Source: Pseudonocardia hierapolitana (GTDB taxonomy: Bacteria; Actinomycetota; Actinomycetes; Mycobacteriales; Pseudonocardiaceae). From it: a stretch of 64,000 nt of DNA. Location: the NCBI RefSeq assembly GCF_007994075.1, contig NZ_VIWU01000001.1, positions 1,984,001-2,048,000 on the forward strand. The letters run 5' to 3'. Numbering within the stretch: position 1 is the stretch's first letter; every line of letters starts with the position of its first letter. Under the pieces are notes generated by a model, which was given only the letters and a program-made list of their open reading frames with translations, did not search any database and was not told the origin of the DNA. This document shows, piece by piece, positions 18,300-37,112 of this stretch. A program made the position numbers and the translations under genes.

Positions 18300-18560
18300 A
18301 GTGTGTCGGTGCGGTGCTCCTGGGTGGAGAACCGTCAGGCTCGGTGCCGGTGACCCGATGTGACTCGTGATCGATCTGGCCGCTTCGGCGTGCCCTGTCT
18401 CGGACTTGTTCCGTCGTGGTCGCCGGCACCGGCCCGGCTCACCGGTTGGCCTGATCAGAAGCCTGTCCGCCGGTTACGGCGTGACCCGTCACAGATGTGC
18501 CACGTGGTGACCCTCACCCGGGCCGGTGCCGCCTGTTGGACCCGTTCCCCGTCAGAAGGA
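18300..18560 (+). ncRNA. Candidate IS110 bridge-RNA region
   Basis: IS110-group elements encode a bridge RNA in the non-coding left end between the element border and the recombinase. This 260-nt stretch holds that position and has several short GC-rich inverted repeats, but I cannot fold it or define the target and donor loops by eye. The call rests on family knowledge and location. Confidence 0.25.
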
Positions 18561-18568
18561 CCAGGCCC

Positions 18569-19680
18569 GTGCCCATGTTGGCAGAACGTGTCGACGCCGT
18601 CGTCGGTGTCGACACCCACCGTGACACCCACGACGACACCCACGACGCAGAAATCGCCCTCCCGACCGGAGCCCCGGTCGCGACCTGCCAGGTCAGCAAT
18701 GACTCCCGCGGCTACGCCGAGCTGCTGGCCTGGATCGGCGATCACGCTCCCGGGTCGCGGGTCGCCGTCGCGATCGAGGGCACCCGCAGCTACGGCATCG
18801 GACTAGCGCGCGCAGTCAGCGGTGCCGGTGTGATGGTGATCGAGTGCGAGCAGCCCAACCGCAAGTCCCGTCGCGGTCGGGGAAAGTCCGACGCGATCGA
18901 CGCGCACCTGGCCGTGCTCACCGCGCTGCGGCTTGACGCCGACCAGCTCCCGAGCCCGCGCGCCGATGGTGACCGCGAAGCGCTGCGGATCCTGATGGAC
19001 GCCGGATCCTGATGGACGCCCGCCACGAGCTCACCGACAGCTCGACCGCTCAGACCAACCGGCTACGCGCACTGCTGCTGGGCGGCGACGACCGCGACCG
19101 TGACTTCGCCCGTGGCACGCTCACCGACACCAGGCTCGCTGCGCTGGCCCGCCACCGTCCGGCCCGCGATGCCAGCCGCGAGCAGGTCGTGCGCCAGGCC
19201 GAGATCCGGCGCCTCGCTCTCGCACTGCGAGGGTCTCACCGCGCACTACGGGCCAACAGCCGCGAACTCCAGCGCATCGTGGACGACCTCGCTCCCGGGC
19301 TGACCGACCGCCGCGGCATCGGCCCGATCATCGCCGCCCAAGCGATCATCAGCTTCTCCCACCCCGGGCGCTGCCGCAACGAGGGCGCCTTCGCCGCGCT
19401 CGCCGGCGCCAGCCCGCTCGAGGCCAGCAGCGGCCACATCAAGCGGCACCGGCTCAACCGCGGCGGTGACCGCGCCCTCAACAGCGCACTGCACACCATC
19501 GCGATGGTCCGCATGCGCAGCTGCCCCACGACCAAGGCCTACCTCGCCCGCCGCACCGCCGAAGGGAAGACCACCCGAGAGATCCGACGCTGCCTCAAGC
19601 GCTACATCGCGCGCGAGCTCTACCGCTTCCTCACCGCGACCATCACGACCACAAGCAGCAACGCGTCCTCAGCCGCTTGA
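18569..19680 (+). pseudogene. IS110-family transposase, frameshifted by a 17-bp duplication
   Basis: The first part (GTG 18569, AGAAGGA 8 nt upstream) carries the RuvC-like DEDD domain: VVGVDTHRDTHD, Glu in VAIEGTRSYG and Asp in GKSDAIDAHLA. It stops at 19012 after REALRILMDAGS. The second part reads on from DARHELTDSSTAQTNR and contains the Transposase_20 domain (RRGIGPIIAAQAI, FAALAGASPLEASSG, RGGDRALNSALHTIAM). Deleting one copy of the 17-bp repeat at 18987-19020 joins the two exactly (ILMDARHEL) into one protein of about 364 residues, the expected family size. Confidence 0.85.
18987..19020. repeat. 17-bp perfect tandem duplication
   Basis: GGATCCTGATGGACGCC occurs twice head to tail (18987-19003 and 19004-19020). 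Because 17 is not a multiple of three it shifts the transposase frame and creates the early stop. Confidence 0.95.
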
Positions 19681-23383: not shown

Positions 23384-24367
23384 ATGCAGTCGTCGAGGAT
23401 CTTCATCGTCGGATCGGGTGTCGTGGGAGCTGCAACGGGTGGCGGCCTCCGCGAGGCCGGCCACGACGTGACGTTCATCGACATCAACGAGGCGCGGGTC
23501 AAGGAGCTCACGGCACGCGGGTGGGATGCCCGCACCGAGATCGACCTGACCGACGAGCCCGAGTCGCTGATCTTCCTGACCCTGCCCACGCCGCACGAGG
23601 GGCACCGCTACGACCTGTCGGCGTTCGAGGCCGGCACCGCGTCGGTCGGACGCGCACTCAAGGGCTCCGCTGCCCGCCACACGGTCGTGGTGCGCTCCAC
23701 CGTTCCCCCGGGCACCACGGAGGGCCTGGTCAAGACCACCCTGGAGGAGAACTCCGGGATGGTGGCCAACGAGGGCTTCGGGCTGGCCTCGAACCCCGAG
23801 TTCCTGCGCGCGGTCTCGGCCGCCGAGGACTTCGCCAACCCCTGGATGACCATCATCGCCAGCCGCGACCCGCAGAACGTCGAGCGGCTGCGCGAGCTGC
23901 TGTCCCCCTTCGGTGGCGAGCTGCGCACCTTCTCCGACCCGGCCGAGGCCGAGTTCATCAAGGCCGCGCACAACATCTTCAACGCCACCAAGATCAGCTT
24001 CTGGAACGAGATGTGGCTGGTCGCCCAGAAGCTGGGCCTGGACCTCGACCCGATCGCCGCCACCGTGGCCCGCTCCGCGGAGGGCTCGATCAACCCCGAG
24101 TACGGCATCCGCGGCGGCGCCCCCTACGGCGGGGTCTGCCTGCCCAAGGACACCTGCGGCTTCCTCGGGTTCGCCAAGACCATCGACGTCGACATGCCGC
24201 TGCTCGCCGCGGTGGTTGAAACGAACGACCGCCTCGCCGCGATCGTTTCAGAAGAGGTCGACACCGCCACGCACGCCGCTACTCACGCCCAGCTGCGCAT
24301 GGCCGCCAGTGGAAAGGAGACGGCTGCTGCTGGGGCGAGCGGACAGCAGCAGCACGAGCCGGCATGA
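23384..24367 (+). CDS. UDP-glucose/GDP-mannose dehydrogenase family protein lacking the C-terminal domain (copy A)
   Basis: 327 residues from ATG 23384 (GGAGGGG upstream). The NAD-binding domain (IFIVGSGVVGAATG, GxGxxG at 10-15) and central dimerisation domain are complete, with Glu in NPEFLRAVSAAEDF, Lys193 and Asn197 in FIKAAHNIFN, and the catalytic Cys252 in GGVCLPKDT. This family oxidises UDP-glucose to UDP-glucuronate or GDP-mannose to GDP-mannuronate. The usual third domain of about 110-130 residues, which closes over the nucleotide sugar, is absent: after VVETNDR only a Gln/Ala-rich tail remains. The paralogue at 31518 ends the same way, so this is not a local frameshift. It is coupled by ATGA overlap to the glycosyltransferase and supplies its likely donor. 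Confidence 0.85.
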   Translation: MQSSRIFIVGSGVVGAATGGGLREAGHDVTFIDINEARVKELTARGWDARTEIDLTDEPESLIFLTLPTPHEGHRYDLSAFEAGTASVGRALKGSAARHTVVVRSTVPPGTTEGLVKTTLEENSGMVANEGFGLASNPEFLRAVSAAEDFANPWMTIIASRDPQNVERLRELLSPFGGELRTFSDPAEAEFIKAAHNIFNATKISFWNEMWLVAQKLGLDLDPIAATVARSAEGSINPEYGIRGGAPYGGVCLPKDTCGFLGFAKTIDVDMPLLAAVVETNDRLAAIVSEEVDTATHAATHAQLRMAASGKETAAAGASGQQQHEPA

Positions 24368-25614
24368 ATCTACCTGCGTATTACTACGTGCTGGGCACCC
24401 CGCTCGGGGTGCTCGGCCTGATCCGGTGGGCCACGTGGCTGGTCCGCCGGATCCCGGCAGTGCTCTACAAACCGGTCGTCAACAACTACCGGCTCCCCAT
24501 GAGCATCGTGGTCCCCACCTACCAGGAGGACCCCGAGATCTTCGCCATGGCGATCGAGTCCTGGTTGGCCAACGGTGTCGAGGAGGTCATCCTCGTCATC
24601 GACGCATCGGACACGACCTGCCAGGAGATCGCACGCAGGTACCCGGTCCGGATCGTGATCACCGACGTCCCGGGCAAGCGGGACGCGTTGCGCCGCGGTT
24701 GGCGCGCCGCCCGCACCGAGCTCGTCGCCCTCGTCGACTCCGACACCATCTGGGCCCCCGACGTGGCCGCCGAGGTGTGCAAGCCGTTCGCCGACCCCCG
24801 CATCGGCGGGGTCGGCACCCGGCAGAGCGTCTACGGCACCAAGGGGTTCCTGGCGCGGATCACCGACATGTTCCTCGACAACCGGTACTTCGACGAGAAC
24901 GCCAGCCAGACCCTGCTGGGTCAGGCCGTCGCGTGCCTGTCGGGCCGCACCGCGATCTACCGCCGCAGCCTGCTGCTGGAGATCGAGGCCGAGTTCATGG
25001 AGGAGTCGTTCTGGGGCATCCCCTGCCTCTCCGGGGACGACAAGCGCCTCACCACGCTCACGCTCGAGCACGGCTACCTCACCTACATGCAGCGCACCGC
25101 CGTGGTGTGGTCGACGTTCCCCGACAAGTGGGCCATCTTCTTCAAGCAGCGCGTGCGCTGGGCCCGCAACACCTGGCGCTCCGACATGCGGGCGCTGTCG
25201 AAGGCCTGGATCTGGAAGCACCCGTTCCTCGCCTACACCATGGTCGACAAGGCCCTGTCGGGCTTCACCGTCCTGCTCGGTCCGATCTTCCTGGTCACCG
25301 CGCTGATCGCGCAGGAGTGGGTCGTCGCCGGCATCCTCATCGCCTGGTGGCAGATCAGCCGCGCGGCGAAGTTCCTCCCGCACATCGTGCGACGGCCGTC
25401 GAGCTTCTTCTTCGTCCTGGGCTACGTGGTCGTCTCGTGGCTCATGGCGCTCATCAAGATCCGTGCCCTGATGACGATCCGCTACCAGAAGTGGGGCACC
25501 CGCCAGGTCGCCGTCGAGAACGGGCAGGTCGTCCGCACCGCGGGCGCCGGCGGCGGCATCGAGGACGACGCGACCATCCCCATGCGGGCGGTCGGTGTTG
25601 GGAGGGCCGCATGA
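24364..25614 (+). CDS. Membrane glycosyltransferase family 2, hyaluronan-synthase-like (copy A)
   Basis: 416 residues. One N-terminal transmembrane helix (about 5-27) precedes a cytoplasmic GT-A domain with SIVVPTYQEDP, GKRDALRRG, the metal motif DSDT (125-128), SGDDKRLT (223-230) and the processive-synthase motif QxxRW at 260-264 (KQRVRW), then about four C-terminal helices. This layout is shared by hyaluronan, Alg8-type and cellulose synthases, which polymerise and extrude the chain through the membrane. The partners argue for a uronic-acid polymer. It is linked by 4-nt overlaps to the genes on both sides. Confidence 0.88.
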   Translation: MNLPAYYYVLGTPLGVLGLIRWATWLVRRIPAVLYKPVVNNYRLPMSIVVPTYQEDPEIFAMAIESWLANGVEEVILVIDASDTTCQEIARRYPVRIVITDVPGKRDALRRGWRAARTELVALVDSDTIWAPDVAAEVCKPFADPRIGGVGTRQSVYGTKGFLARITDMFLDNRYFDENASQTLLGQAVACLSGRTAIYRRSLLLEIEAEFMEESFWGIPCLSGDDKRLTTLTLEHGYLTYMQRTAVVWSTFPDKWAIFFKQRVRWARNTWRSDMRALSKAWIWKHPFLAYTMVDKALSGFTVLLGPIFLVTALIAQEWVVAGILIAWWQISRAAKFLPHIVRRPSSFFFVLGYVVVSWLMALIKIRALMTIRYQKWGTRQVAVENGQVVRTAGAGGGIEDDATIPMRAVGVGRAA

Positions 25615-27812
25615 CCAGCTCCCGTAATCACACGCGCGGTCTCGCCAGGATCATCCTGGCGAGCCTCGCCATCGGCGCGCTCACGCTTCCCGTCACCGCG
25701 GGCTCGGCCGCGGCTGCGACCGCGGGCAACGCCGTGGCCCAGTCGACTCCGCCAGGGGGCAGCGACACCGGTGGTAGTGCCACCGACCCCGGCGGTGACG
25801 GGAGTGGCTCCGGCAGCGACCCCGGCGGCGACGGCGGCGGGAGCGGCGGCGGAAGCGACCCCGGCGACGGTGGCGGCAGCGGCGGCGGCAGCGGTGGCGG
25901 CAACACGAACCCCGACCCCGACCCACCGCGCGCCGTCACCCCGAGGCCCACCGGACCCTCCCAGCAGGAGCTCGAAGAGAAGCGCCAGCAGGAGGAGCAG
26001 CGCAAGGCGGAGGAGAAGGCCGCGAAGGAGGCGGCCGAAGCTGCCCGCAAGGCCGAGGAGAAGCGCCTCAAGGAGATCGAGCGGCAGCGGCGAGAGGCCG
26101 CCGAGCGCGCCGAGCAGGCAGCCAAGGCGCGTGCGTCGTGGGACGAGCGCGGCCGGCCCCGCCAGATGGTCACCATCCGCACGGACCGCGTCGAGGTCGT
26201 CGACAACGGGCGGCTCACCACCCTCGTCCCGCGGCGCCCCGGCTCGCTGGACCTGCAGGGGCTCGATCGCATGCTGCCGGCCGACTGGATCACCATCGAC
26301 GGCGACACCGCCACGGTGAACACGGCCATCGTCCTGACGCCGGGCGTCAACTTCGAGATCGCCGACATCCCCACCGTCAAGCTGACCGGTGGACCCGAGG
26401 TGCCGGACGCCTCCGCGATCTACACCGGCAGCGGGCGGCTGACGCTGAAGAACACCACGCTCTCGGGCGTCGACCGCGGCGGGCAGCAGCTGCCGATGGA
26501 CGCGGTCGGCCGGCCCTTCCTCGAAGCGGCGGGCGGCGGCGAGATCAACGCCACGGACGTCACCATCACCGACATGGGCGTCCCCGAGCACGGCCAGGCG
26601 ACCGCGGAACCCGCCGTGGGCTTCAACCCGGGCAGCACCGGATCGCTCGTCCGCACCACGCTGCAGCGCAACAACGTCGGCGTGGAGGTCTCGAAGGCCC
26701 AGGGCGTGCAGCTCGACGGGCTGACGGTCACCGAGTCCGAGGGCGACGGCATCGTCCTCAACGGCGACCGGGGCACCCGCATGGCCAATCTCCGCGCCGA
26801 GAAGAACGGCGGCAACGGGATGTTCGTCGGCGGGGACAACTCCGACCGGCCGATCAGCGGACTCACCACGCTGAACAACAAGCTCTACGGCCTGGTCGTG
26901 ACGGTGCAGAAGGGCACCAAGATCAGTGGCATCAGCACCGAGGCCGACGAGGCGGGCGGCCTGCGGCTGAACCAGGTGGAGAACGTCACGGTCACCGACT
27001 TCGCAGCCACCGACCAGCCGATCGGCATCTTCACCCACGTCGGCAGCACCGGCATCGTGCTCGACAACGTCCGCACGAACGGCGGGCGCCGGGGCGTGGT
27101 GGTCGAGAAGAGCACCACCAACCTGGAGCTGAAGAACTCGACCATCGAGGGTGCCCGGGTCGCCGGCGTGAACGTCGGTGGCAAGGAGATCCAGGTCAAC
27201 GGCGTGCAGATCACCGACGCCAAGGCGGGTGTGCGCGTCGAGCGCGGCGCCGCGCACGTCAAGCTCACCGGCACGACGATCGACGGCGGTCGCGACGGGG
27301 TCGTCTCCTCGCCGGGTGCGCAGGACGTCACCATCACCGACCTCACGGCCAACAACGTCGAGGACGGCGCGATCCGTCTCGGCACCCCGCACGCCGTGGT
27401 CAGCGGCGGCACGATCAACGGTGGTGCCACCGGCATCCAGGTCACCGGACCGGCCACGATCACCGCGGTGGCGATCAACGGGCCCAGCGCGGGCATGCGG
27501 GTCCGCTCGTCCGAGATGGTGCGCGCGGAGAACGTCGCGATCGAGGCCACCGACCTGGGGCTCGACGTGTCGCCCGGTAGCCAGATGGTGCTCGCCAACT
27601 CGAGCGTGCACGCGCTGGAGGCCGTCCGCGGGGTGTTCACACCGGAAGGCGCGAACAACATCAGCCTTCCCCCGCTCAACCTGCTGGCCGCCATGGGCGT
27701 GCCGCTGATCCTGCTGGCCATCGTGCTGGAGCAGGTGCACTCATTCCGCCAGCGCAAGGTGGGCGGCAACAAGAAGCGCCTGCCCCCGGCGATCCCGGTG
27801 GGTGCCGGCTAG
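25611..27812 (+). CDS. Membrane-anchored coiled-coil/beta-helix protein (copy A)
   Basis: 733 residues. It has a signal peptide (to about 38), a Gly/Ser/Asp-rich linker (about 45-105), a highly charged coiled coil (about 115-175, EEKRQQEEQRKAEEKAAKEA) and a short globular segment. A long right-handed parallel beta-helix follows (about 260-690, repeats such as GDGIVLNGDRGTRMANL). The C-terminus has one transmembrane helix (PLNLLAAMGVPLILLAIVLE) and a basic tail. The helix lacks the Y-x2-D-P-H epimerase motif. It could scaffold, bind or guide the nascent polysaccharide; no enzymatic role is visible. The ATG overlaps the GT2 stop (ATGA). Confidence 0.7.
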   Translation: MTSSRNHTRGLARIILASLAIGALTLPVTAGSAAAATAGNAVAQSTPPGGSDTGGSATDPGGDGSGSGSDPGGDGGGSGGGSDPGDGGGSGGGSGGGNTNPDPDPPRAVTPRPTGPSQQELEEKRQQEEQRKAEEKAAKEAAEAARKAEEKRLKEIERQRREAAERAEQAAKARASWDERGRPRQMVTIRTDRVEVVDNGRLTTLVPRRPGSLDLQGLDRMLPADWITIDGDTATVNTAIVLTPGVNFEIADIPTVKLTGGPEVPDASAIYTGSGRLTLKNTTLSGVDRGGQQLPMDAVGRPFLEAAGGGEINATDVTITDMGVPEHGQATAEPAVGFNPGSTGSLVRTTLQRNNVGVEVSKAQGVQLDGLTVTESEGDGIVLNGDRGTRMANLRAEKNGGNGMFVGGDNSDRPISGLTTLNNKLYGLVVTVQKGTKISGISTEADEAGGLRLNQVENVTVTDFAATDQPIGIFTHVGSTGIVLDNVRTNGGRRGVVVEKSTTNLELKNSTIEGARVAGVNVGGKEIQVNGVQITDAKAGVRVERGAAHVKLTGTTIDGGRDGVVSSPGAQDVTITDLTANNVEDGAIRLGTPHAVVSGGTINGGATGIQVTGPATITAVAINGPSAGMRVRSSEMVRAENVAIEATDLGLDVSPGSQMVLANSSVHALEAVRGVFTPEGANNISLPPLNLLAAMGVPLILLAIVLEQVHSFRQRKVGGNKKRLPPAIPVGAG

Positions 27813-27819
27813 GAACGCG

Positions 27820-28722
27820 ATGTCCAGATCTCCGTCCCGGCGCGCCGCCGCCGCGGTCCTCGGCGTCCTGCTCGTGGGCGTCGCGGGCTGCGGCGGCGGT
27901 GCGTCGTCCTCGGACGCGGAGCCCCCGGCCCCCGGTACCACCGGCAGCGGCGTCGAACCGGCGGCGTTGGAGGAGTTCCTCGGCAACGGGCTGCGCCACA
28001 CCGGGGACGGTGGGTTCGGACTGGACATCTCCCAGGTGGTGGAGGACCCGGACGCGCCGAGCGGGGAGCTGCTGCGCGCGTTCTACCCCGCCGGGTCGGC
28101 GAGCCGCGGCACCGACGGGCCCGACGGCGGGATGCAGGCGCGCATGCGACTGCCCGGACCCACCGACGTGGTCGATCTGACCTACCAGGTGCGGTTCCCG
28201 GAGGGCTTCGACTTCGTCAAGGGCGGCAAGCTGCCCGGGCTCTACGGCGGCGCGGGCAACAGCGGCGGCGAGATACCGGACGGCAGCGACGGCTTCTCCA
28301 CCCGCTACATGTGGCGGGCCGACGGCGCGGGCGAGGTGTACGCGTACCTCCCGACCTCCGAGGAGCACGGCACGTCGCTCGGGCGGGGGTGCTGGTCGTT
28401 CGCGCCCGGGTTGTGGACCACCATCCGGCAGCGGGTGCAGCTGAACACCCCTGACGAGTCCGACGGCCGGATCTCGGTCTGGCAGGACGACCGGCTCGTG
28501 CTGGACCGCGGCGACCTGCAGTTCCGCACCGGCGGCGCGCTCCGGATCGACGGGCTCTTCTTCTCCACCTTCTTCGGCGGCGGCGACTCGTCCTGGGCGA
28601 GCCCCGCGGACCAGTACGCCGACTTCGCCGAGTTCGACCTCACCGAGGGCTCGGAGCCCCCACCGGGGGAGCCGCCTGCGTCCGACGACGACAGCGACTG
28701 CGGCACCCCGGGCGCATCATGA
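27820..28722 (+). CDS. Polysaccharide lyase family 14-like lipoprotein
   Basis: 300 residues from ATG 27820. Signal peptide with a lipobox (VGVAGC), so it is likely anchored on the outer face of the membrane. The body resembles the PL14 jelly-roll lyases: GGKLPGLYGG, FSTRYMWR, a GRGCWSF segment, and LFFSTFFGGGDSSWASP near the end. PL14 enzymes cleave alginate or glucuronate-containing chains by beta-elimination. It sits 7 nt after the beta-helix gene and overlaps the epimerase gene by ATGA, so it belongs to the operon and probably trims the product during export. Operon B has no counterpart. Confidence 0.75.
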   Translation: MSRSPSRRAAAAVLGVLLVGVAGCGGGASSSDAEPPAPGTTGSGVEPAALEEFLGNGLRHTGDGGFGLDISQVVEDPDAPSGELLRAFYPAGSASRGTDGPDGGMQARMRLPGPTDVVDLTYQVRFPEGFDFVKGGKLPGLYGGAGNSGGEIPDGSDGFSTRYMWRADGAGEVYAYLPTSEEHGTSLGRGCWSFAPGLWTTIRQRVQLNTPDESDGRISVWQDDRLVLDRGDLQFRTGGALRIDGLFFSTFFGGGDSSWASPADQYADFAEFDLTEGSEPPPGEPPASDDDSDCGTPGAS

Positions 28723-30125
28723 CCACCGGCGTCACATCCGGTGCAGACCCGAGGATGACCCAGACGATGTCTCGACCGACCGCCTCCCACGCTGCCCGTC
28801 CCCGTGGCCGGACCGCCGTGCTCGGGGTACTCCTGGCCGTCGCCGCACTGCTGGCGAGCGCCTGCGGCAACCCGGCCCCCGACCCGCTCACGCGGAAGGA
28901 GGCGCCACCCAACGAGAAGGTGGACCCCGCCCAGCCGTGCGTGCGGGACGCCTCGGGCGGCGGTGGAGGCGAAGAGGGGGGTGGCGCGCCCACCGCCCGG
29001 TTCGACGCCGCCTCGAACACGATCAACCTGACCGCAGGCGAGGGGGTGACGCTGCCTGCGCTGGCCCAGCGCGTCAGCGGCAACACGCTGCGCGACACGG
29101 GCGACGGCGTGTGGGAGCTGCGCGCCGACATCGCCATCCTCAACGGGGCCTCGCTGCGGATCGCGGCGCCCGAGGTCAAGTGGCTCAAGCTGATCAGCGA
29201 GAACGGCAAGTTCGCATCGCTGAAGCCCTCCGGCGGGGGCCTGGACGTCGTCGGCTCCTGCATCACGTCGTGGGACCCGGGAGCGAACGCCGCCGACACG
29301 AACCTCGACGACGGCCGCGGCTACCTGCTCGCCCGCGACGGCGCGCGGATGGACATCGACAACGCCGAGCTCCGCTTCCTCGGCAACGGCACGGTCGAGT
29401 CCTACGGGCTCTCCTGGCGCACCGAGGGCACGACCGGGAAGATCACCAACAGCGTCGTGTCCAACAACTACTTCGGCCTCTACAGCTACGAGGTGAACGG
29501 GCTCGTCATCACCAACAACGAGTTCCACGACAACCAGCTGTACGGCATCGACCCGCACACCGGGTCACACAACATGACCATCGAGGGCAACGTCGTCCAC
29601 GACAACGGCAAGCACGGCATCATCCTCGCCGAGGACTGCACCGACAGCGTCATCCGCAACAACACCGTCTACCGCAACGCCCACCACGGGATCGTGCTCT
29701 ACCTGCGGTCGGACCGGAACACGATCGAAGGCAACGACACCTTCGCCAACGCCGCCCAGGGCATCAACATCAACGAGTCGCACGACAGCGTCATCCGGAA
29801 CAACCGCGTCTACGACAACAACGAGTCCGGCATCGGCGTCACCCAGACCTCCGAGAACAACCTCGTCGAGAACAACCAGGTCCGGGGGAACAAGCAGGAC
29901 GGTGTGCGTGTGGTGAGCGAGTCGGCCCGGAGCACGGTCCGCGCCAACACGGTGGGCGAGAACGGCCGGTACGGCGTGTACGTCGACATCGACGGCGACG
30001 TGGACATCGCGGACAACACGATCTTCGCCAACCGGTCGGGGATCATGCTGAAGGGCTCGGCCGTCGTGCCCGACGGAACGAACTCGATCTTCGACAACCA
30101 GCAGGCCCCGATCGTCAACGACTGA
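28719..30125 (+). CDS. AlgG/AlgE-like mannuronan C5-epimerase, lipoprotein (copy A)
   Basis: 468 residues from ATG 28719 (the overlap with the lyase stop supports this start; 28755 and 28767 are alternatives). Signal peptide with lipobox ending LLASAC (Cys49). A right-handed parallel beta-helix follows (about 185-460). The motif YGIDPHTGSHN places Tyr275, Asp278 and His280 exactly as Tyr149, Asp152 and His154 of AlgE4, the catalytic residues of alginate C5-epimerases. HDNGKHGIILAEDC next to it is also AlgG-like. It should convert D-uronate residues to their C5 epimers in the polymer outside the cell. The substrate (mannuronan or another uronan) is not proven. Confidence 0.82.
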   Translation: MTTGVTSGADPRMTQTMSRPTASHAARPRGRTAVLGVLLAVAALLASACGNPAPDPLTRKEAPPNEKVDPAQPCVRDASGGGGGEEGGGAPTARFDAASNTINLTAGEGVTLPALAQRVSGNTLRDTGDGVWELRADIAILNGASLRIAAPEVKWLKLISENGKFASLKPSGGGLDVVGSCITSWDPGANAADTNLDDGRGYLLARDGARMDIDNAELRFLGNGTVESYGLSWRTEGTTGKITNSVVSNNYFGLYSYEVNGLVITNNEFHDNQLYGIDPHTGSHNMTIEGNVVHDNGKHGIILAEDCTDSVIRNNTVYRNAHHGIVLYLRSDRNTIEGNDTFANAAQGININESHDSVIRNNRVYDNNESGIGVTQTSENNLVENNQVRGNKQDGVRVVSESARSTVRANTVGENGRYGVYVDIDGDVDIADNTIFANRSGIMLKGSAVVPDGTNSIFDNQQAPIVND

Positions 30126-30180
30126 GCGCGCCGAGGTTCCGCGTCATCACCTGACCGGGACCGCGTTCCACCCGAACGAG

Positions 30181-30256
30181 CCGCCCGATCACGGGCGGGG
30201 CCGGCCCGGGCACATCTAACCTGATGCGCCCGGGCCGATCTTGTGCGCCCGATCGA
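30181..30256. terminator. Two hairpins ending operon A
   Basis: CCGCCC-GATCAC-GGGCGG (30181-30198) is followed by GGCCCGGGC (30203-30211) pairing with GCCCGGGCC (30248-30256). They lie 55-130 nt after the epimerase stop and just before the PL7 gene, suggesting termination and separate expression of the PL7 lyase. Confidence 0.45.
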
Positions 30257-30276
30257 CGTCCGACCGGGAGGGTCTC

Positions 30277-31062
30277 GTGCCGCGCATCTCCCCGCTCCTC
30301 GCCGCGCTGGTCGTCGCGCTCCCACCGGTCCCGATCCCCGACCCCGGACCGGGCATCGGTCCGCTGCTGGGCCAGCTGTGGGAACGGGCGCTCAGCCCGA
30401 TCCGCGACGTGAAGTTCCCCGCGGACCTGGTCGACCTCGACAACTGGTACCTCACGCTGCCCACGGGCGAGAAGGGCGACCCGGACGACGTCTACCCGCC
30501 CGCCCTCGGTTCCTTCGTCGGCGACTGGTTCCGGCTGAACGACGCGCGCGACGGCATCGTGTTCTGCGCCCACGCAGGCGGTGCCACCACCAGGAACAGC
30601 AAGTACCCGCGCTCGGAGCTGCGGGAGATGCGGGGCGGTGCGCCGGCGAGCTGGTCGAACGAGTCCGGCACCCACACCATGAGGCTCCGGCAGGCCGTGA
30701 CGAAGCTGCCGCAGGCGAAGCCGCACGTCGTGACGGCACAGATCCACGACGAGGACGACGACGTCGTGATGGTGCGGCTCGAGGGCACGCAGCTCGAGGT
30801 CGAGTACGACGACGGCCGCAGCGAGATCGTCATCGACCCGCACTACGAGCTCGGGACCCCGTACGACCTGCGCATCGTGGCCGCCAACCGCGAGGTCGAG
30901 GTCTTCCACGACGACAGGCTGGTCGCCGACCTCCCGATCAGCGGTGACGGCTGGTACTTCAAGACCGGCAGCTACGTCCAGTCCAATCCGGAACGCGGCG
31001 AGGCTCCGGACGCCGTCGCCGAGGTCGTCCTGTACTCCCTCGAGGTCGAGCACTCTGGGTGA
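30277..31062 (+). CDS. PL7 alginate lyase
   Basis: 261 residues from GTG 30277 (GGGAGGG at good spacing). A hydrophobic N-terminus (PLLAALVVALPPVP) suggests export. The three diagnostic PL7 motifs are intact: RSELR at 112-116, QIH at 155-157 and YFKTGSYVQ at 227-235, with NWYLTLPTGEKG before them. These form the active-site groove with catalytic Arg, His and Tyr. The Ile in QIH is usually linked to guluronate-containing rather than pure mannuronate substrate. It follows operon A and reinforces an alginate-like polymer. Its role may be release or turnover of the polymer. Confidence 0.9.
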   Translation: MPRISPLLAALVVALPPVPIPDPGPGIGPLLGQLWERALSPIRDVKFPADLVDLDNWYLTLPTGEKGDPDDVYPPALGSFVGDWFRLNDARDGIVFCAHAGGATTRNSKYPRSELREMRGGAPASWSNESGTHTMRLRQAVTKLPQAKPHVVTAQIHDEDDDVVMVRLEGTQLEVEYDDGRSEIVIDPHYELGTPYDLRIVAANREVEVFHDDRLVADLPISGDGWYFKTGSYVQSNPERGEAPDAVAEVVLYSLEVEHSG

Positions 31063-31265
31063 ACGGATCCGGTGCGCCTGCGCCGCCGGCAAACGCTGCT
31101 TCCGCCGCCGGGGTGCGCCCGACCGGGCGACAGGTCGCCGAGCGGTCGCACAGGGGGTCATTTTTGCGCCGGGTGGCGACCCGCGGCCACCCGAATGGGT
31201 GTTTTCCGGATGGATACGGGTGACCCGGCAATTGCTCTGGATTCACCGGACCAGGTGTATTTTTT

Positions 31266-31281
31266 AGTGACCCACATCACA
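31266..31281. promoter_or_regulatory. CRP-like binding site, operon B
   Basis: AGTGACCCACATCACA contains GTGA-N6-TCAC, 237 nt before the gene start, and is followed by TGGTTAC like the operon A site (23136-23151). Confidence 0.55.
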
Positions 31282-31415
31282 ATCATGGTTACCCTTGGTT
31301 GAACGACATCCGTCGCCACGATCGCCCTCGAGGCGCCGGTGAGGCCCATATCTCACCCCTGAGCTGCCCCAACAGGCTACCGACCTACCAATAGCCCACA
31401 GTGCCCGGATACGAA

Positions 31416-31465
31416 GCGTAATCAGCAGTTACACGATCGTGGAGCCGCTCGATTGCGGAACCATC
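31416..31465 (+). promoter_or_regulatory. Conserved leader element, operon B
   Basis: GCGTAA, CGATCGTGGA (31434-31443) and CGATTGCGGAACCATC (31450-31465) match the blocks in the operon A leader, 52 nt before the ATG. See 23285-23334. Confidence 0.45.
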
Positions 31466-31517
31466 TCCCCTGACGCGACGGGTTCGGCCGCTCAGAAATA
31501 GGGGAAGGTGCAATTCC

Positions 31518-32465
31518 ATGCAGTCGTCGAGGATCTTCATCGTCGGTTCGGGCGTCGTGGGAACGGCGACGGGTGAGGGCTTCCTGGCGGCCGGTCACGA
31601 CGTCACGTTCATCGACATCGCACCGGAGCGGGTGCGCGAGCTGCGGGAGCGTGGCCTGGACGTGCGCACCGAGATCGACCTGACCGGCGAACCGGAGTCG
31701 CTCATCTTCCTGACCCTGCCCACACCCAACGACGGCCACCGCTACGACCTGTCCGCGTTCACCGCCGGCACCGCCGCCGTCGGCCGCGCCCTCGCCACGG
31801 CACGGGCGCACCACACCGTCGTCGTGCGCTCCACGGTGCCGCCCGGCACCACCGAGGGCCTGGTCCGCACGGTGCTCGAGGAGCAATCCGGCCGCGCCGT
31901 GGGCGAGGGCTTCGGGCTGGCGTCGAACCCCGAGTTCCTGCGCGCGGTGTCCGCGGCCGAGGACTTCGCCCACCCGTGGATGACCGTGATCGCCAGTCGC
32001 GATCCGCAGACCGTCCAGCGGCTGCGGGACCTGCTGTCGCCCTTCGGCGGTGAGCTGCGCACGTTCGCGGATCCGGCCGAGGCCGAGCTCGTCAAGTGCG
32101 CGCACAACATCTTCAACGCCACCAAGATCAGCTTCTGGAACGAGATGTGGCTGGTCGCCCGCAAGCTCGGCCTCGACCTCGACCCGATCGCCGCCACCGT
32201 GGCCCGCTCGGCCGAGGGCTCGATCAACCCGCAGTACGGAATCCGCGGCGGCGCCCCCTACGGCGGGGTGTGCCTGCCCAAGGACACCAAGGGCTTCCTC
32301 GGATTCGCCGACACGATCGGGGTGGACATGCCGCTGCTCTCCGCGGTGGTCGAGACGAACGACCGCCTCGCAGAATTCGTCGACCACGAGATCGCCAACC
32401 AGGCCGCAGCCGCCGACCAGATGCGGGCCCGCGCGATGGCGGGCTCCGACCGCGAGTCGGCATGA
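31518..32465 (+). CDS. UDP-glucose/GDP-mannose dehydrogenase family protein lacking the C-terminal domain (copy B)
   Basis: 315 residues, closely similar to the copy at 23384 along its whole length, beginning with the same MQSSRIFIVGSGVVG. The NAD motif, the Glu in NPEFLRAVSAAEDF, the Lys/Asn in KCAHNIFNATKISF and the catalytic Cys in GGVCLPKDTKGF are present. The C-terminal nucleotide-sugar domain is again missing; the protein ends about 65 residues after the catalytic cysteine. It overlaps the GT2 gene by ATGA. Sharing the truncation with copy A means it predates the duplication. Confidence 0.85.
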   Translation: MQSSRIFIVGSGVVGTATGEGFLAAGHDVTFIDIAPERVRELRERGLDVRTEIDLTGEPESLIFLTLPTPNDGHRYDLSAFTAGTAAVGRALATARAHHTVVVRSTVPPGTTEGLVRTVLEEQSGRAVGEGFGLASNPEFLRAVSAAEDFAHPWMTVIASRDPQTVQRLRDLLSPFGGELRTFADPAEAELVKCAHNIFNATKISFWNEMWLVARKLGLDLDPIAATVARSAEGSINPQYGIRGGAPYGGVCLPKDTKGFLGFADTIGVDMPLLSAVVETNDRLAEFVDHEIANQAAAADQMRARAMAGSDRESA

Positions 32466-33748
32466 ACCTTCCCGTCTACTACTACGTGCTGGGCACCCCG
32501 CTGGGGGTCCTCGGCCTGTTCCGCTGGGCCTGTTGGCTCGCCCGGCGCATCCCGGCGGTGCTCTACCGGCCCGTCCTCGCCGAGCACCGCCTGTCGATGA
32601 GCCTGGTCGTGCCGGTCTACCAGGAGGACCCGCAGATCTTCGCGGCGGCGATCGAGTCGTGGCTGGCCAACGACGTCGACGAGGTCATCCTCGTCATCGA
32701 CGCCTCGGACCGGATCTGCCAGGAGATCGCCCGCCGCTATCCGGTGACGGTCGTGGTCACCACCGTGCCCGGCAAGCGGGACGCACTGCGCCGGGGCTGG
32801 CGCAAGGCGACGACCGACCTGGTGGCGCTGGTCGACTCGGACACCGTGTGGGCCCCCGACGTCGCCATCGAGGTGTGCAAGCCGTTCGCGGACCCCCGCA
32901 TCGGCGGTGTCGGCACCCGGCAGTCCGTCTACGGCGCACGCGGGTTCCTGGCGCGGATCACCGACATGTTCCTCGACCACCGCTACTTCGACGAGAACGC
33001 CAGCCAGACCTACCTGGGCCGGTCCGTCTCGTGCCTCTCCGGGCGGACCGCGATCTACCGGCGCCACCTGCTGCTGGAGATCGAGGACGACTTCATGGAC
33101 GAGACGTTCTGGGGTGTGCCCTGCCTGTCGGGTGACGACAAGCGCCTCACGACGCTCATCCTCGAACGCGGCCACCTCACCTACATGCAGCGCACCGCCG
33201 AGGTCTGGTCCACCTTCCCGGACCAGTGGCGGATCTTCTTCCGCCAGCGGCTGCGCTGGGCGCGCAACACCTGGCGCTCGGACCTGCGTGCGCTGTCGCG
33301 GCCCTGGGTGTGGCGCCATCCGTTCCTCGCCTACACGATGGTCGACAAGGCCGTCAGCGGCTTCACGCTCCTGCTCGGCCCGATCTTCATGGTCGTCGCG
33401 CTCGTCCACCAGAACTGGATCTTCGCGGCCGTGCTCGCGCTGTGGTGGCAGATCAGCCGCTCGGCCAAGCTGCTGCCGCACATCAGGCGCAGGCCGTCCA
33501 GCTTCTTCCTGGTGCCCGGCTACGTCTTCGTCTCCTGGGTCATGGCATTGATCAAGATCCAGGCGCTTCTCACCATCCGCCGCCAGCGCTGGCTCACCCG
33601 CCAGGTCGCCGTCGAGAACGGCGAGGTGGTGCGCACGTCGCAGCCGGGCGCACACCTGCACCAGCAGCAGGAGCCAGAAGCGCAGGCGCGGGCCGAGGGC
33701 CGGGAGCAGCAGAGGCCGAGCCAGTCCCGCACGGAGGCGGCGGTATGA
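32462..33748 (+). CDS. Membrane glycosyltransferase family 2, hyaluronan-synthase-like (copy B)
   Basis: 428 residues, a full-length paralogue of the copy A synthase. It keeps DSDTVW, LSGDDKRLT and RQRLRWARNTW (QxxRW), with one N-terminal and about four C-terminal transmembrane helices. The C-terminal tail after VENGEVVR is different and Gln/Glu-rich (HQQQEPEAQARAE). It is coupled by 4-nt overlaps to the dehydrogenase upstream and the beta-helix gene downstream. Confidence 0.88.
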   Translation: MNLPVYYYVLGTPLGVLGLFRWACWLARRIPAVLYRPVLAEHRLSMSLVVPVYQEDPQIFAAAIESWLANDVDEVILVIDASDRICQEIARRYPVTVVVTTVPGKRDALRRGWRKATTDLVALVDSDTVWAPDVAIEVCKPFADPRIGGVGTRQSVYGARGFLARITDMFLDHRYFDENASQTYLGRSVSCLSGRTAIYRRHLLLEIEDDFMDETFWGVPCLSGDDKRLTTLILERGHLTYMQRTAEVWSTFPDQWRIFFRQRLRWARNTWRSDLRALSRPWVWRHPFLAYTMVDKAVSGFTLLLGPIFMVVALVHQNWIFAAVLALWWQISRSAKLLPHIRRRPSSFFLVPGYVFVSWVMALIKIQALLTIRRQRWLTRQVAVENGEVVRTSQPGAHLHQQQEPEAQARAEGREQQRPSQSRTEAAV

Positions 33749-35733
33749 CCGGGCGCCACCGGATCGGCAGGTTGGCCGCCGCCGGTGCGGTGCTCGGGAC
33801 CGTCGGCGTCCTGCTGAGCGGCGAGGTGTTCGGAGTGTTCGGCGGCGTCGCGAACGCGGCACCCGCGCCGGTCCGGGCGCCTGCAGCCGCCCCTGCCGCT
33901 GCTCCGGTCGCGGCACCGCTGCAGGCACCCCAGCCCGACCCGGAAGCCGCCGAGCGCGCCGCGGCTCAAGCGCGGGCACGGGCGCAGGCCGCGGCGCGGG
34001 CCGCCCGGGCGGCCGCCAAGCGCGCCGAAGCGGCCAGGAAGGTCCGTGTGACCTGGGAGAAGCGTGGCCGGCCGCACCGGATGGCCGTCGTGCGATCGAA
34101 CCGGATCGACGTGGTGACCGACGGCCGCCTCACCCGCCAGGTCGGCCGGGGCGGCGGCTCCATCTCGATCAACACGCTCGACCGGGCGCTGCCCAGCGAC
34201 TGGCTGGCGACGTCCGAGGGCACCGCCACGCTCAGCGCGGCGATCGTGCTCACCCCGGGGACCGCGCTCGAGGTGGGCGACCCGATCAAGCGGCTCGAGC
34301 TGATCGGCGGCGCCACCGCGCAGGACGCGGCGGCGATCTACACCGGCAGCGGCCGGGTGTCGCTGACGGGTGTCACCGTCACCTCGGCCGATCCGGCCAC
34401 CCGGCAGGCCGTGACGCCCACAGCCGCAGGCCGGCCCTTCTTCGCCGTCTCCGCGCGCGGCCGGCTCGACGCGGTCGACTCGACGATCAGCGACCTCGGC
34501 ACCCCGTCCACCGGGATCGACGGGGGCCGGGCAGGCGTGACGTTCAACCAGGGCGCCACCGGCTCGCTGGTGCGCACCACGGTGCAGCGCAACACCACGG
34601 GCGTGGAGCTGTCCCGGTCCGATGCCGTGCACCTCGAGGACGTCACGTTCACCGACTCGGTCGGGGACGGGCTCGTGCTCACCGGCGATCGCGGCACGAC
34701 GATGCGCGGCATCCGGGCCCTCGGCAACGGCGACAACGGCGTGGTGGTCGCCGGGGAGAGCACCGGCCGTCCGGTGACCGACATCACGACGAACGGCAAC
34801 GGCGGCTACGGCGTGGTGGTGGTCGGCCAGGCGCGCACCGAGCTCTCCGGGATCACCACCACGGCCGACCAGGCGGGCGGCCTGCGGATCAATCGCTCCA
34901 CCGATGTCCATGTGTCCGGCCTCAGCGCCACCGACCAGCCGGCAGGCGTGTTCGTCCACGTCGGCAGCGCGCGGATCGCGCTCGACCACGTGCGGACCTC
35001 GGGCGGCAGGCGCGGTGTGGTGGTCGAGAAGAGCACCGACGGGTTCGAGCTGCGCGACTCGACGATCGACGGCGCCCGCGTGGCCGGCGTCGGGATCGGC
35101 GGCAAGCACGTGCTGCTGAGCGGTGTGCAGATCAGCGACTCGCGCGCCGCCGTGCGGGTCGAGCGCGGCGCGGAGGGCATCCGCCTCGCGGGGCTGGTCG
35201 TGGACGGCGGGCGGGACGGCATCGTGGCCACCCCGGGCACCACCGGCGTGGTGATCGCGGACCTCGTGGCACGCAACGTGGAGTCGGACGCGGTGCGGAC
35301 CGCCAGCACGGACGCCGAGATCATCGGCGGGCGCATCACCGGCGGCACGACGGGCATCGACGTCGCGGCGGCCAGCACGATCTCCGGTGTCACGATCGAC
35401 GGCGCCGCCGAGGGCATCCACTCCCGGTCGCCCGACCTCGTGCGGGCCGACGAGATGCGCATCGACGCGCTCAGCCTCGGCGTCAACGCCGCGCCGGGGA
35501 GCTCGTTCCACCTGACCGGCTCCAGCGTGCACGCGCTCGAGGCGCTGCGCGGGCCGATCCAGCAGCACGGCACGAACGACCTCAGCCTGCCGCCGCTCAA
35601 CCTGCTCAGCGCGATCGGCGTGCCGCTGATCCTGCTGGCCATCGTGCTCGAGCAGGTGCACACCACCCGGCAGCGGCGGGCGGGCATCCGCAGGCGCCGG
35701 CTGCCGCCGGTGCCCGTCGGCGCGACGAGCTGA
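33745..35733 (+). CDS. Membrane-anchored coiled-coil/beta-helix protein (copy B)
   Basis: 662 residues. Signal peptide, then a short Ala/Pro linker in place of the long Gly/Ser linker of copy A, an Ala/Arg-rich coiled coil (about 72-115), a beta-helix (about 180-620) and the same C-terminal transmembrane helix (GVPLILLAIVLEQVHTTRQR). The most conserved stretches are the helix rungs near GGRRGVVVEKST and the membrane anchor. No catalytic motif is visible. It occupies the same operon position as the copy A protein, so it is probably a structural part of the machinery. Confidence 0.7.
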   Translation: MTGRHRIGRLAAAGAVLGTVGVLLSGEVFGVFGGVANAAPAPVRAPAAAPAAAPVAAPLQAPQPDPEAAERAAAQARARAQAAARAARAAAKRAEAARKVRVTWEKRGRPHRMAVVRSNRIDVVTDGRLTRQVGRGGGSISINTLDRALPSDWLATSEGTATLSAAIVLTPGTALEVGDPIKRLELIGGATAQDAAAIYTGSGRVSLTGVTVTSADPATRQAVTPTAAGRPFFAVSARGRLDAVDSTISDLGTPSTGIDGGRAGVTFNQGATGSLVRTTVQRNTTGVELSRSDAVHLEDVTFTDSVGDGLVLTGDRGTTMRGIRALGNGDNGVVVAGESTGRPVTDITTNGNGGYGVVVVGQARTELSGITTTADQAGGLRINRSTDVHVSGLSATDQPAGVFVHVGSARIALDHVRTSGGRRGVVVEKSTDGFELRDSTIDGARVAGVGIGGKHVLLSGVQISDSRAAVRVERGAEGIRLAGLVVDGGRDGIVATPGTTGVVIADLVARNVESDAVRTASTDAEIIGGRITGGTTGIDVAAASTISGVTIDGAAEGIHSRSPDLVRADEMRIDALSLGVNAAPGSSFHLTGSSVHALEALRGPIQQHGTNDLSLPPLNLLSAIGVPLILLAIVLEQVHTTRQRRAGIRRRRLPPVPVGATS

Positions 35734-35759
35734 CCCGCGCCGCCTGCCGAGGAGGGACC

Positions 35760-37112
35760 ATGAACACGTCACAGATACCGGCCCGGGCCGCCCTCCTCGT
35801 GGCGACGCTCGGGGTGCTCGGCAGCGCGGTCGTGCTCGCCGTGGTCGGGAGCATCCCTCCGGAGCCGCAGCAGCTGGTGCGGCACGAGGCGGCCGCCGCG
35901 GTCCAGATCGACCCGGCCCGGCCCTGCAGCCGGGAGGCGCCCGAAGGGCCGGCAGCACCGCCGCCCGCGGGCGTGCAGGCCCGCTTCGACCCGGCCCAGA
36001 ACGCCGTTGTGCTCTCGGCCGGGCAGGGCGTGACCATGCCGGCGCTCGCACAGGCCGTGGGCAACCCGGACCTCCTGCGCGAGGAGGCGCCGGGCGAGTG
36101 GCTGCTCGGCGCGGACCTCGCGGTGCTGCCCGGCACCTCCCTGCAGCTCGCCGCCCCGACCACCCGGTGGCTCAAGCTGCTCAGCACGGCGGGCCGGTAC
36201 GCCTCCGTGAAGGCCTTCGGTGGCAACGTCGACGTGAGCGGCGTCTGCATCACCTCCTGGGACCCGGCCAAGGGCACCGTCGACACCGAGCCCGCCGACG
36301 GCCGCGGCTTCCTGCTCGCCCGTGACGGCACGCAGATGACCATCGACCACGCCGAGATCCGCTACCTCGGCCACGGGGAGGTCGAGTCCTACGGCCTGTC
36401 CTGGCGCACCGAGGGCACCGGCGGGAAGATCACCGACAGCATCGTGTCGCACAACTACTTCGGCCTGTACAGCTACGAGGTGGGCGGGCTCGTCGTGGCC
36501 GACAACGAGTTCCACGACAACGTCCTCTACGGCATCGACCCGCACACGGGCTCACACAACCTCACGATCGAACGCAACGTCGTCCACGACAACGGCAAGC
36601 ACGGCATCATCCTCGCCGAGGACTGCGTCGACAACGTCATCCGCGACAACGTCGTGTACCGCAACAACCACCACGGCATCGTGGTCTACCTGCGGTCGGA
36701 CCGGAACACGGTCGAGGGCAACGACACCTTCGCCAACGCAGCGCAGGGCATCAACGTCAACGAGTCCAACGACAACGCCATCCGCGGCAACCGGGTCTAC
36801 GACAACATCGAGTCCGGGATCGGCATCACGCAGACGTCCCAGAACAACCTCGTCGAGAACAACCAGAGCCGCGGCAACCAGCAGGACGGGATCCGCGTCG
36901 TGAGCGAGGCGGCTCTCACCACGGTGCGCGCGAACACGCTCGGCGAGAACGGGCGGTACGGCGTGTACGTCGACATCGACGGCGACGTCGACATCGCCGG
37001 AAACCTGATCTTCGCCAACCGGTCGGGGATCATGCTGAAGGGCTCCGCGGTCGTTCCCGACGGCGACAACGCGATCTTCGACAACCACGAAGCGGCGATC
37101 ATCGCGGGCTGA
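35760..37112 (+). CDS. AlgG/AlgE-like mannuronan C5-epimerase, signal-anchored (copy B)
   Basis: 450 residues from ATG 35760 with GAGGAGGG upstream. The N-terminus is a hydrophobic signal or anchor (ALLVATLGVLGSAVVLAVVG) without a lipobox cysteine, unlike copy A. The beta-helix carries YGIDPHTGSHN with Tyr257, Asp260 and His262 matching the AlgE4 catalytic trio, and HDNGKHGIILAEDC after it. The reaction should be C5-epimerisation of uronate residues outside the cytoplasm. It is the last gene of operon B; no lyase gene follows. Confidence 0.82.
   Translation: MNTSQIPARAALLVATLGVLGSAVVLAVVGSIPPEPQQLVRHEAAAAVQIDPARPCSREAPEGPAAPPPAGVQARFDPAQNAVVLSAGQGVTMPALAQAVGNPDLLREEAPGEWLLGADLAVLPGTSLQLAAPTTRWLKLLSTAGRYASVKAFGGNVDVSGVCITSWDPAKGTVDTEPADGRGFLLARDGTQMTIDHAEIRYLGHGEVESYGLSWRTEGTGGKITDSIVSHNYFGLYSYEVGGLVVADNEFHDNVLYGIDPHTGSHNLTIERNVVHDNGKHGIILAEDCVDNVIRDNVVYRNNHHGIVVYLRSDRNTVEGNDTFANAAQGINVNESNDNAIRGNRVYDNIESGIGITQTSQNNLVENNQSRGNQQDGIRVVSEAALTTVRANTLGENGRYGVYVDIDGDVDIAGNLIFANRSGIMLKGSAVVPDGDNAIFDNHEAAIIAG

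Follow-up and report, generated by a model that had tools for sequence, protein, structure and literature searches.

Two tandem operons in Pseudonocardia hierapolitana

The window analysed here is a 64-kb stretch (64,000 nucleotides; G000:C1:1984001-2048000) of the 8.86-Mb single-contig genome of Pseudonocardia hierapolitana. Between positions 23384 and 37112 it holds ten + strand genes in two tandem operons, each of which probably encodes a machine for an exported, C5-epimerised polyuronate. Operon A consists of A1-A6 (23384-31062) and operon B of B1-B4 (31518-37112). All ten genes have a third-position GC content of 0.92-0.96 in their own frame, and several adjacent genes within the operons overlap by four bases. 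The counterparts of A1, A2, A3 and A5 are B1, B2, B3 and B4, respectively. The polysaccharide lyase (PL) genes A4 and A6 have no counterpart in operon B, and A6 sits between the two operons. The original prediction, made from the DNA letters, had described two adjacent operons with a nucleotide-sugar dehydrogenase, a GT2 synthase, a C5-epimerase and lyases. Hidden Markov model (HMM) searches of each family, together with the third-position GC, confirmed this layout, and every family assignment was borne out.

AlgG-like epimerases and related β-helix proteins

A5 (28719-30125, 468 residues, a putative lipoprotein) and B4 (35760-37112, 450 residues) match the Beta_helix and NosD models. Both also match the AlgG model NF038177, with E values of 2.7e-41 and 1.9e-35 and scores of 141.8 and 122.5 bits, far below its equivalog cut-off of 700. 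The best solved relatives of A5 are the poly(β-D-mannuronate) C5-epimerases 4nk6 (E 4e-26), 4ozy, 4ozz and 4nk8, followed by the C5-epimerase 4 structure 2pyg; PMC11468063 gives 4nk6 as the P. syringae enzyme. The Tyr-x2-Asp-x-His motif, which the original prediction had pointed out, is present as YGIDPHT in both proteins. With this motif and a β-helix predicted from sequence, A5 and B4 have the features of mannuronan C5-epimerases. The motif is kept in 38 of 41 epimerase-like rows, the exceptions being L114, one of the two in L115, and L124; 13 of 54 rows were left out of these counts (three from L068, and ten weak ones belonging to second-clade loci or to L066). In a 29-row alignment selected from the 41, Tyr275, Asp278, His280 and His299 (A5 numbering) are invariant. 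Among solved structures, those of AlgG rank first against the epimerase profile (E 3.5e-58).

The second set of β-helix proteins, A3 (25611-27812, 733 residues, exported) and B3 (33745-35733, 662 residues), also matches Beta_helix and NosD, and each appears from its sequence to end in a C-terminal hydrophobic anchor. Their profile (25 rows, with 5 of 30 left out) aligns with the epimerase profile at a probability of 99.5 (E 3e-23) over 326 columns that include the N-terminal part; against solved structures it gave nothing at E <= 0.01. Tyr-x2-Asp-x-His is absent from A3 and B3, and the motif region is replaced in the profile alignment; therefore, these two are not the active epimerases. As judged from sequence, they are related to the epimerases but lack the catalytic motif, and can be called pseudo-epimerases. 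Epimerisation by the Tyr-x2-Asp-x-His chemistry is thus ruled out for A3 and B3, which may have another activity. The earlier reading of the β-helix proteins as C5-epimerases accordingly holds for A5 and B4 but not for A3 and B3, whose pseudo-epimerase nature had gone unnoted.

PL14 and PL7 lyases

A4 (27820-28722, 300 residues) matches PF21294 with 208.9 bits (cut-off 27) and the structure 5gmt with an E value of 9e-32, and carries the Lys and Tyr-x-Tyr region, which we take to have its usual roles in PL14 enzymes. It is a putative lipoprotein by its lipobox, and an upstream GTG at 27802 is a possible alternative start. A6 (30277-31062, 261 residues) matches PF08787 with 134.5 bits (cut-off 29.7) and the structures 5zqi (E 3e-55) and 1uai (E 2e-48), and has all three PL7 motifs (RSELRE, QIH and YFKTGSYVQ). 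The PL14-like and PL7 lyases that had been predicted in and beside operon A are therefore both well founded. In the genome as a whole, the PL14 gene of operon A is the single copy, and PL7 is represented by four genes, one of them in the window. PF05426 (PL5, and presumably PL17 as well) had no match in the genome; PF07940 (PL15/PL17) was not part of this search.

GT2 synthases

A2 (24364-25614, 416 residues) and B2 (32462-33748, 428 residues) are processive-type GT2 synthases (PF13641, E 2.6e-33 and 3.5e-34) of the hyaluronan synthase/NodC lineage, a resemblance to hyaluronan synthase that had already been suspected. They carry the motifs DSD, GDD, Q-x-x-R-W and W-x-T-R, which presumably have their usual roles. 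In the GT2 tree (3 of 45 rows left out), the synthases of operon A and those of operon B form separate five-row clades, each with a support of 100/100, indicating that the A/B duplication is old. A plasmid search with A2 retrieved 174 records, all below 60% identity and 154 of them from Rhizobium or Sinorhizobium; NodC is 27-30% identical to A2 among the plasmid matches listed.

Two-domain dehydrogenases

A1 (23384-24367, 327 residues) and B1 (31518-32465, 315 residues) consist of PF03721 and PF00984. Thus, the predicted nucleotide-sugar dehydrogenase family stood, but the enzymes are not full-length: the C-terminal NDP-binding domain PF03720 is absent, a point that the original prediction had missed. 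All 29 clade I dehydrogenases are 267-336 residues long, too short for a third domain (Pfam domains were checked in 4 of the 29), and PF03720 was not found among the A1 relatives listed (best 120 of 2836).

Active-site positions were read in 29 clade I, 7 second-clade and 5 own-genome dehydrogenases, guided by an alignment of A1 with GDP-mannose dehydrogenase (GMD) and by the positions in PMC4794789; 8 of 37 rows (seven second-clade full-length enzymes and one from L068) were left out of the counts. The equivalents of the catalytic Glu157, Lys210, Lys220, Asn225, Cys268 and Asp272 are kept in 29/29 clade I enzymes, so that A1 and B1 have the catalytic Cys, Lys, Asn and Asp of NDP-sugar 6-dehydrogenases without their three-domain build. 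R122, Y256, Ala161, Asn217 and Pro263 are likewise present in 29/29, and R259 in 28/29 (K in one), with the alignment gapped beside 256-259. The seven second-clade enzymes all have K122, L217 and G263, as in UDP-glucose dehydrogenase (UGD), and none has R259. The residues listed as GMD-specific are Arg122, His217, Ala263, Leu126 and Cys213 (PMC4794789), and Tyr256 and Arg259 are key GMD active-site residues in a docking study (PMC10619135). Judged by these residues, the clade I dehydrogenases are GMD-like at three active-site positions and unlike both GMD and UGD at others. Neither a plain UGD nor a plain GMD is supported for A1 and B1; lacking PF03720 and four of the five GMD-specific residues, they do not amount to an AlgD in the cluster.

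A full-length AlgD-like GMD is encoded elsewhere in the genome (G000:C1:5079810-5081156; L131 9810-11156; L005 523-1869). It has R122, H217, A263, Y256 and R259 and scores 455 bits against 1mfz, the next enzyme reaching 255. Its region is separate from the operons and contains several genes that resemble glycosyltransferases by sequence. Two UGD-like enzymes are also encoded elsewhere in the genome.

Conservation of the operons in the genus and beyond

The window and 25 further genus loci, most of them fetched via the epimerase, were compared by tblastn and gene calls. Neighbouring genes were predicted with a caller based on codon usage, for which 18 genes of the window (7 of the 10 operon genes among them) were the training set, and their starts are approximate. 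We found 21 dehydrogenase-GT2-β-helix-epimerase operons in 16 of the 26 loci; the first dehydrogenase of L049 is truncated where the fetched stretch ends. At six loci (L046, L051, L052, L057, L060 and L063) the epimerase has no operon within 20 kb. L064 has a GT2-β-helix fusion and an epimerase with no dehydrogenase match, L054 and L071 reach a contig end, and in Pseudonocardia sp. CNS-004 (L008/L068) both operons are broken into several frames, by decay or assembly errors. The tandem A+B pair recurs in G436, G408, G416 and G430; G428 has it in fragments. PL7 lies in 7/26 loci and PL14 in 6/26 (one cut at a contig end), and L047 holds a 35-residue PL14 remnant. A genome-contig search with A5 gave four loci, one of them in a close relative, the CNS-004 strain. 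The gene-neighbourhood search shows conserved synteny. As a separate observation, a gene of 616-617 residues with the shared start MRCA.HRGPDESGTW adjoins the lone epimerase in two species (L051 10553-12406 and L052 6979-8829).

Only loci retrieved by the GT2 are free of the bias introduced by fetching with the epimerase; for these, we examined the neighbourhoods in all five close non-genus genomes and at 12 further matches. Outside the genus, a GT2 of at least 56% identity occurs in 3/394 class genomes (G631, G549 and G768) and 2/396 phylum genomes (G982 and G820); the P. hierapolitana genome adds four loci. All nine of these loci carry a two-domain dehydrogenase and a β-helix gene, six have the Tyr-x2-Asp-x-His epimerase, and five have PL7 and/or PL14 (operon B, which adjoins A6, is not counted, and the PL14 of L114 is partial). 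L112 and L113, which are near-copies of each other in a single genus, do not count as independent. PL7 genes lie near the operons of other genera in L066, L112 and L113. An order search with the epimerase in 397 genomes found two genomes besides P. hierapolitana: G137 (L066), with dehydrogenase, GT2, epimerase, a phosphomannose isomerase (PMI) cupin and PL7, and Modestobacter lapidis (G304, L067), with GT2, PL14 and an epimerase bearing YGFDPHD.

Two of these loci call for a remark of their own. L116 (G000:C1:2596588-2597769) is a further dehydrogenase-GT2-β-helix operon of P. hierapolitana without an epimerase, with a PL7 gene at a distance of about 15 kb. For the nucleotidyltransferase of L111, mannose-1-phosphate guanylyltransferase was the best model, but at 125.5 bits against a cut-off of 440 the assignment was rejected; with a score so far below the cut-off, it is a hint only.

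More distant synthases form a second clade. The class search gave 30 more genomes with a GT2 at 36-41% identity. Among the 12 further loci examined (L117-L128; 10 class and 2 phylum matches), L125 has a two-domain dehydrogenase, and none was recognised in L117, L118, L121 and L126. The β-helix proteins of these loci mostly lack Tyr-x2-Asp-x-His, and a PMI-type cupin (8551-8964) lies near the second-clade GT2 gene of L126.

Gene fusions

At L125 (G843), a single 793-residue protein, encoded beside the two-domain dehydrogenase, has a hydrophobic stretch at its N terminus and combines an epimerase domain (YGIDPHT) with a GT2 domain. Its GT2 has the second-clade signature and groups with that clade on a long branch. 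A second, independent example, P0241, has 797 residues, 63% identity to the first and the same motif. Two other fusions are known from one example each: the GT2 of L064 joined to an A3-type β-helix protein, and an epimerase of L066 (9672-13454) joined to Acyl_transf_3 and SGNH domains. The NCBIfam model nearest to the latter is SucT (250 bits; cut-off 1275), a hint at O-acylation. The assemblies of L064, L066 and L125 are fragmented (about 380, 500 and 110 contigs), and a second example exists for the L125 fusion only.

Co-occurrence of synthase, epimerase and PL7

GT2 (E <= 1e-120), epimerase (E <= 1e-30) and PL7 (over its cut-off) were found in the identical 15 of 62 Pseudonocardia genomes and in 0 of the 47 others; G405 has a PL7 match below cut-off only. 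The carriers have one to six PL7 matches each, many outside the operon. The chance of two identical sets of 15 is 1e-14 under independence of genomes, but the genomes are related. In a tree built from MetG for 60 of the 62 genomes (two had no match), with this single gene standing for the species tree, the system label needs six changes, at least three of them forced on supported branches. Eleven carriers and two non-carriers (G399 and G418) fall into one clade, and the carriers G410, G445, G434 and G447 lie elsewhere. One 0/1 vector served for both the system and PL7; as both occur in exactly the same genomes, the agreement of PL7 with the label is built in. PL14 was found in 12 of the 62 genomes, nine of them carriers (P about 4e-5 under independence of genomes).

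Sequences around the operons

A GCG(A/G)AACCATC segment is common to the stretches about 50-65 bases before A1 (23384) and B1 (31518), and is also present ahead of orthologous A and B operons. A riboswitch or other known RNA in the window was rejected, as nothing exceeded an Rfam gathering score anywhere in it. Upstream of the operons, two consecutive + strand reading frames at 18497-19680 resemble, by impression from the sequence, pieces of a transposase.

Discussion

Polyuronate synthesis is supported by synteny, by the gene fusions and by the matching distribution of synthase, epimerase and PL7 over 62 genomes. Each operon would then encode a membrane-coupled machine that makes and exports a polyuronate epimerised at C5, most likely of the alginate type, in which mannuronan is partly converted to guluronate; we regard this reading as probable. 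That the polymer is a polyuronate of some kind is very likely, and mannuronate/guluronate chemistry has about an even chance or slightly better. The alginate type is favoured by the GMD-like residues at three positions, the PMI cupin beside the L066 operon and the PL7 link. The strongest support comes from the conserved operons, the fusion of synthase to epimerase and the matching occurrence of PL7; the identity of the sugar is the weakest link.

In the proposed mechanism, the dehydrogenase A1/B1 would supply, or help to supply, a nucleotide-linked uronic acid, which the GT2 A2/B2 would polymerise while extruding the chain. The anchored pseudo-epimerase A3/B3 may hold or guide the emerging chain beside the synthase; outside the cell, the lipoprotein or membrane-bound epimerase A5/B4 would then act on residues at C5. 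Trimming, clearing or release of the polymer may fall to the PL14 and PL7 lyases.

Several observations weigh against an alginate-type system or its consistent linkage. Hyaluronan synthases are the best solved relatives of the GT2, whose nearest matches overall are hyaluronan synthase and NodC (no Alg8 was among the comparators). The caution about polymer identity in the original prediction stands: the synthase lineage does not favour alginate. The position that we take to be AlgG Arg345 is Glu in 30/41 epimerase rows, A5 and B4 included, and Arg in 4/41, all four from other genera. A5 and B4 also have Thr for the second Asp of DPHD, which is T in 32/41 rows and D in 4/41, and to this extent they depart from AlgG. 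Tyr-x2-Asp-x-His is missing from three of the nine loci retrieved by the GT2 (L111, L114 and L116). A profile search of the ten genes, not extended to the rest of the genome, gave zero matches to Alg44, AlgK, AlgX and AlgE. The dehydrogenases lack PF03720, share one of the five GMD-specific positions of PMC4794789 (Arg122 only), and at Asn217, Pro263 and Ala161 are neither GMD-like nor UGD-like. Full-length UGD-like enzymes at 7 of the 12 further GT2 loci indicate that a link to mannose does not hold for the whole GT2 family. Three of the four PL7 genes of P. hierapolitana lie outside the operons, and the stretches fetched around them show no neighbouring gene of the system. Finally, the supported tree pairs number three, too few for a significant sign test; three of the 12 PL14 genomes lack the system, and PL14 does not follow the system label on the MetG tree. 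PL14 as a system marker is thus not supported there, despite nine of its 12 genomes being carriers.

The most serious alternative, though an unlikely one, is a glucuronan or hyaluronan-like polymer of glucuronate, possibly with N-acetylglucosamine, in which the epimerase would form iduronate and PL7 and PL14 would have shifted to that substrate. The kinship of the GT2 to hyaluronan synthase and NodC and the UGD-like enzymes among L117-L128 agree with it, as does the action of the PL14 enzyme vAL-1 on glucuronan; however, A4 is nearer to 5gmt (114 bits) than to vAL-1 (31 bits). The clade I residues R122, Y256 and R259, against K122 and no R259 in the second clade, the PL7 linkage, the epimerase profile nearest to AlgG structures and the PMI cupin at L066 also speak for the alginate type.

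Somewhat less probable still is that the two-domain dehydrogenase makes no nucleotide-uronic acid, a GMD or UGD elsewhere supplying the precursor and A1/B1 serving another oxidation or regulation, which would be compatible with the polymer reading. The uniformly short clade I enzymes, the absence of PF03720 from the relatives listed and the full GMD and two UGD-like enzymes elsewhere in the genome fit this view, but the catalytic residues retained in 29/29 copies and the operon linkage count against it. That the lyases serve alginate catabolism and stand beside unrelated capsule genes by chance is improbable: three of the four PL7 genes do lie apart, and according to PMC11468063 the products serve as a carbon source for most of the bacteria with alginate-lyase homologues that it discusses (essentially Streptomyces), but PL7 and synthase share their 15 genomes, PL7 lies near the operons of other genera, and PF05426 was not found in a search of the genome that did not cover PF07940.

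On the polyuronate reading, the operons can be set beside known systems. Alginate synthesis has been characterised in Pseudomonas, Azotobacter and brown algae. As in the alg gene list of the two bacteria, a dehydrogenase, a GT2, an AlgG-like C5-epimerase and a lyase occur together. Unlike there, the ten genes give no Alg44, AlgK, AlgX or AlgE match, the GT2 is of the hyaluronan synthase/NodC lineage, the dehydrogenase has two domains, PL14 and PL7 replace AlgL (PL5), and an anchored pseudo-epimerase is present; moreover, the host has no outer membrane of the Pseudomonas kind. Hyaluronan synthase and NodC share the four GT2 motifs and the membrane-synthase type with A2, which differs in its identity to NodC (27-30% in the plasmid matches listed) and in belonging to an operon with a C5-epimerase and alginate-type lyases. 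The second-clade operons (for example L119, L120, L123, L127 and L128) resemble those described here in a GT2 of 35-41% identity, large β-helix proteins, a dehydrogenase and sometimes a distant PL14. They differ in their full-length UGD-like dehydrogenase, another GT2 signature, YAN or YSN for YAY in PL14, and β-helix proteins mostly without Tyr-x2-Asp-x-His (L067 and L117 have it). The brown algal pathway (GMD, ManC5-E and PL41) likewise has AlgG-like epimerases; compared by motif, with no algal sequence in the set, the prevalent T in place of the second D of DPHD sets the epimerases here apart from the algal ones. DPHD is present in L067 and L117, and a protein search with the L067 epimerase showed no alga among the named matches listed (best 120 of 203; 8000 candidates scored).

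PMC11468063 names the same alginate-synthesising groups. It places the nearest bacterial relatives of brown-algal ManC5-E in actinobacteria, at about 30% identity, a link that the original prediction had not mentioned, and does not strongly support an actinobacterial origin of the algal GMD. The paper also states that no brown-algal mannuronan synthase gene has been validated and that the Streptomyces with alginate-lyase homologues are not known to possess a pathway for alginate biosynthesis. In line with the original prediction, the titles and abstract openings of the papers listed in the literature searches describe no actinobacterial alginate pathway. It is conceivable, at somewhat less than even chances, that the operons represent a true mannuronate/guluronate alginate pathway, belonging to Gram-positive actinobacteria and evolved separately from that of Pseudomonas. 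A GT2 of the hyaluronan synthase lineage would then serve as the mannuronan synthase, together with a minimal GDP-mannose dehydrogenase of two domains, a synthase-coupled epimerase (one polypeptide in some lineages) and a pseudo-epimerase as chain guide. Kinship to the bacterial source of the epimerases of brown algae is possible for this lineage, or for the related DPHD-bearing sequences of Modestobacter and its allies.

What appears new, in the light of the literature searched, is putative actinomycete machinery for producing, remodelling and trimming an alginate-like acidic sugar polymer; Pseudomonas, Azotobacter and brown seaweeds are the groups from which such a pathway is known. A further point of interest is a dehydrogenase that lacks its nucleotide-binding domain, and the synthase-epimerase fusion would couple polymerisation to epimerisation. 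The Pseudonocardia operons thus offer concrete test objects for an actinobacterial alginate-like polymer, together with a candidate synthase lineage.

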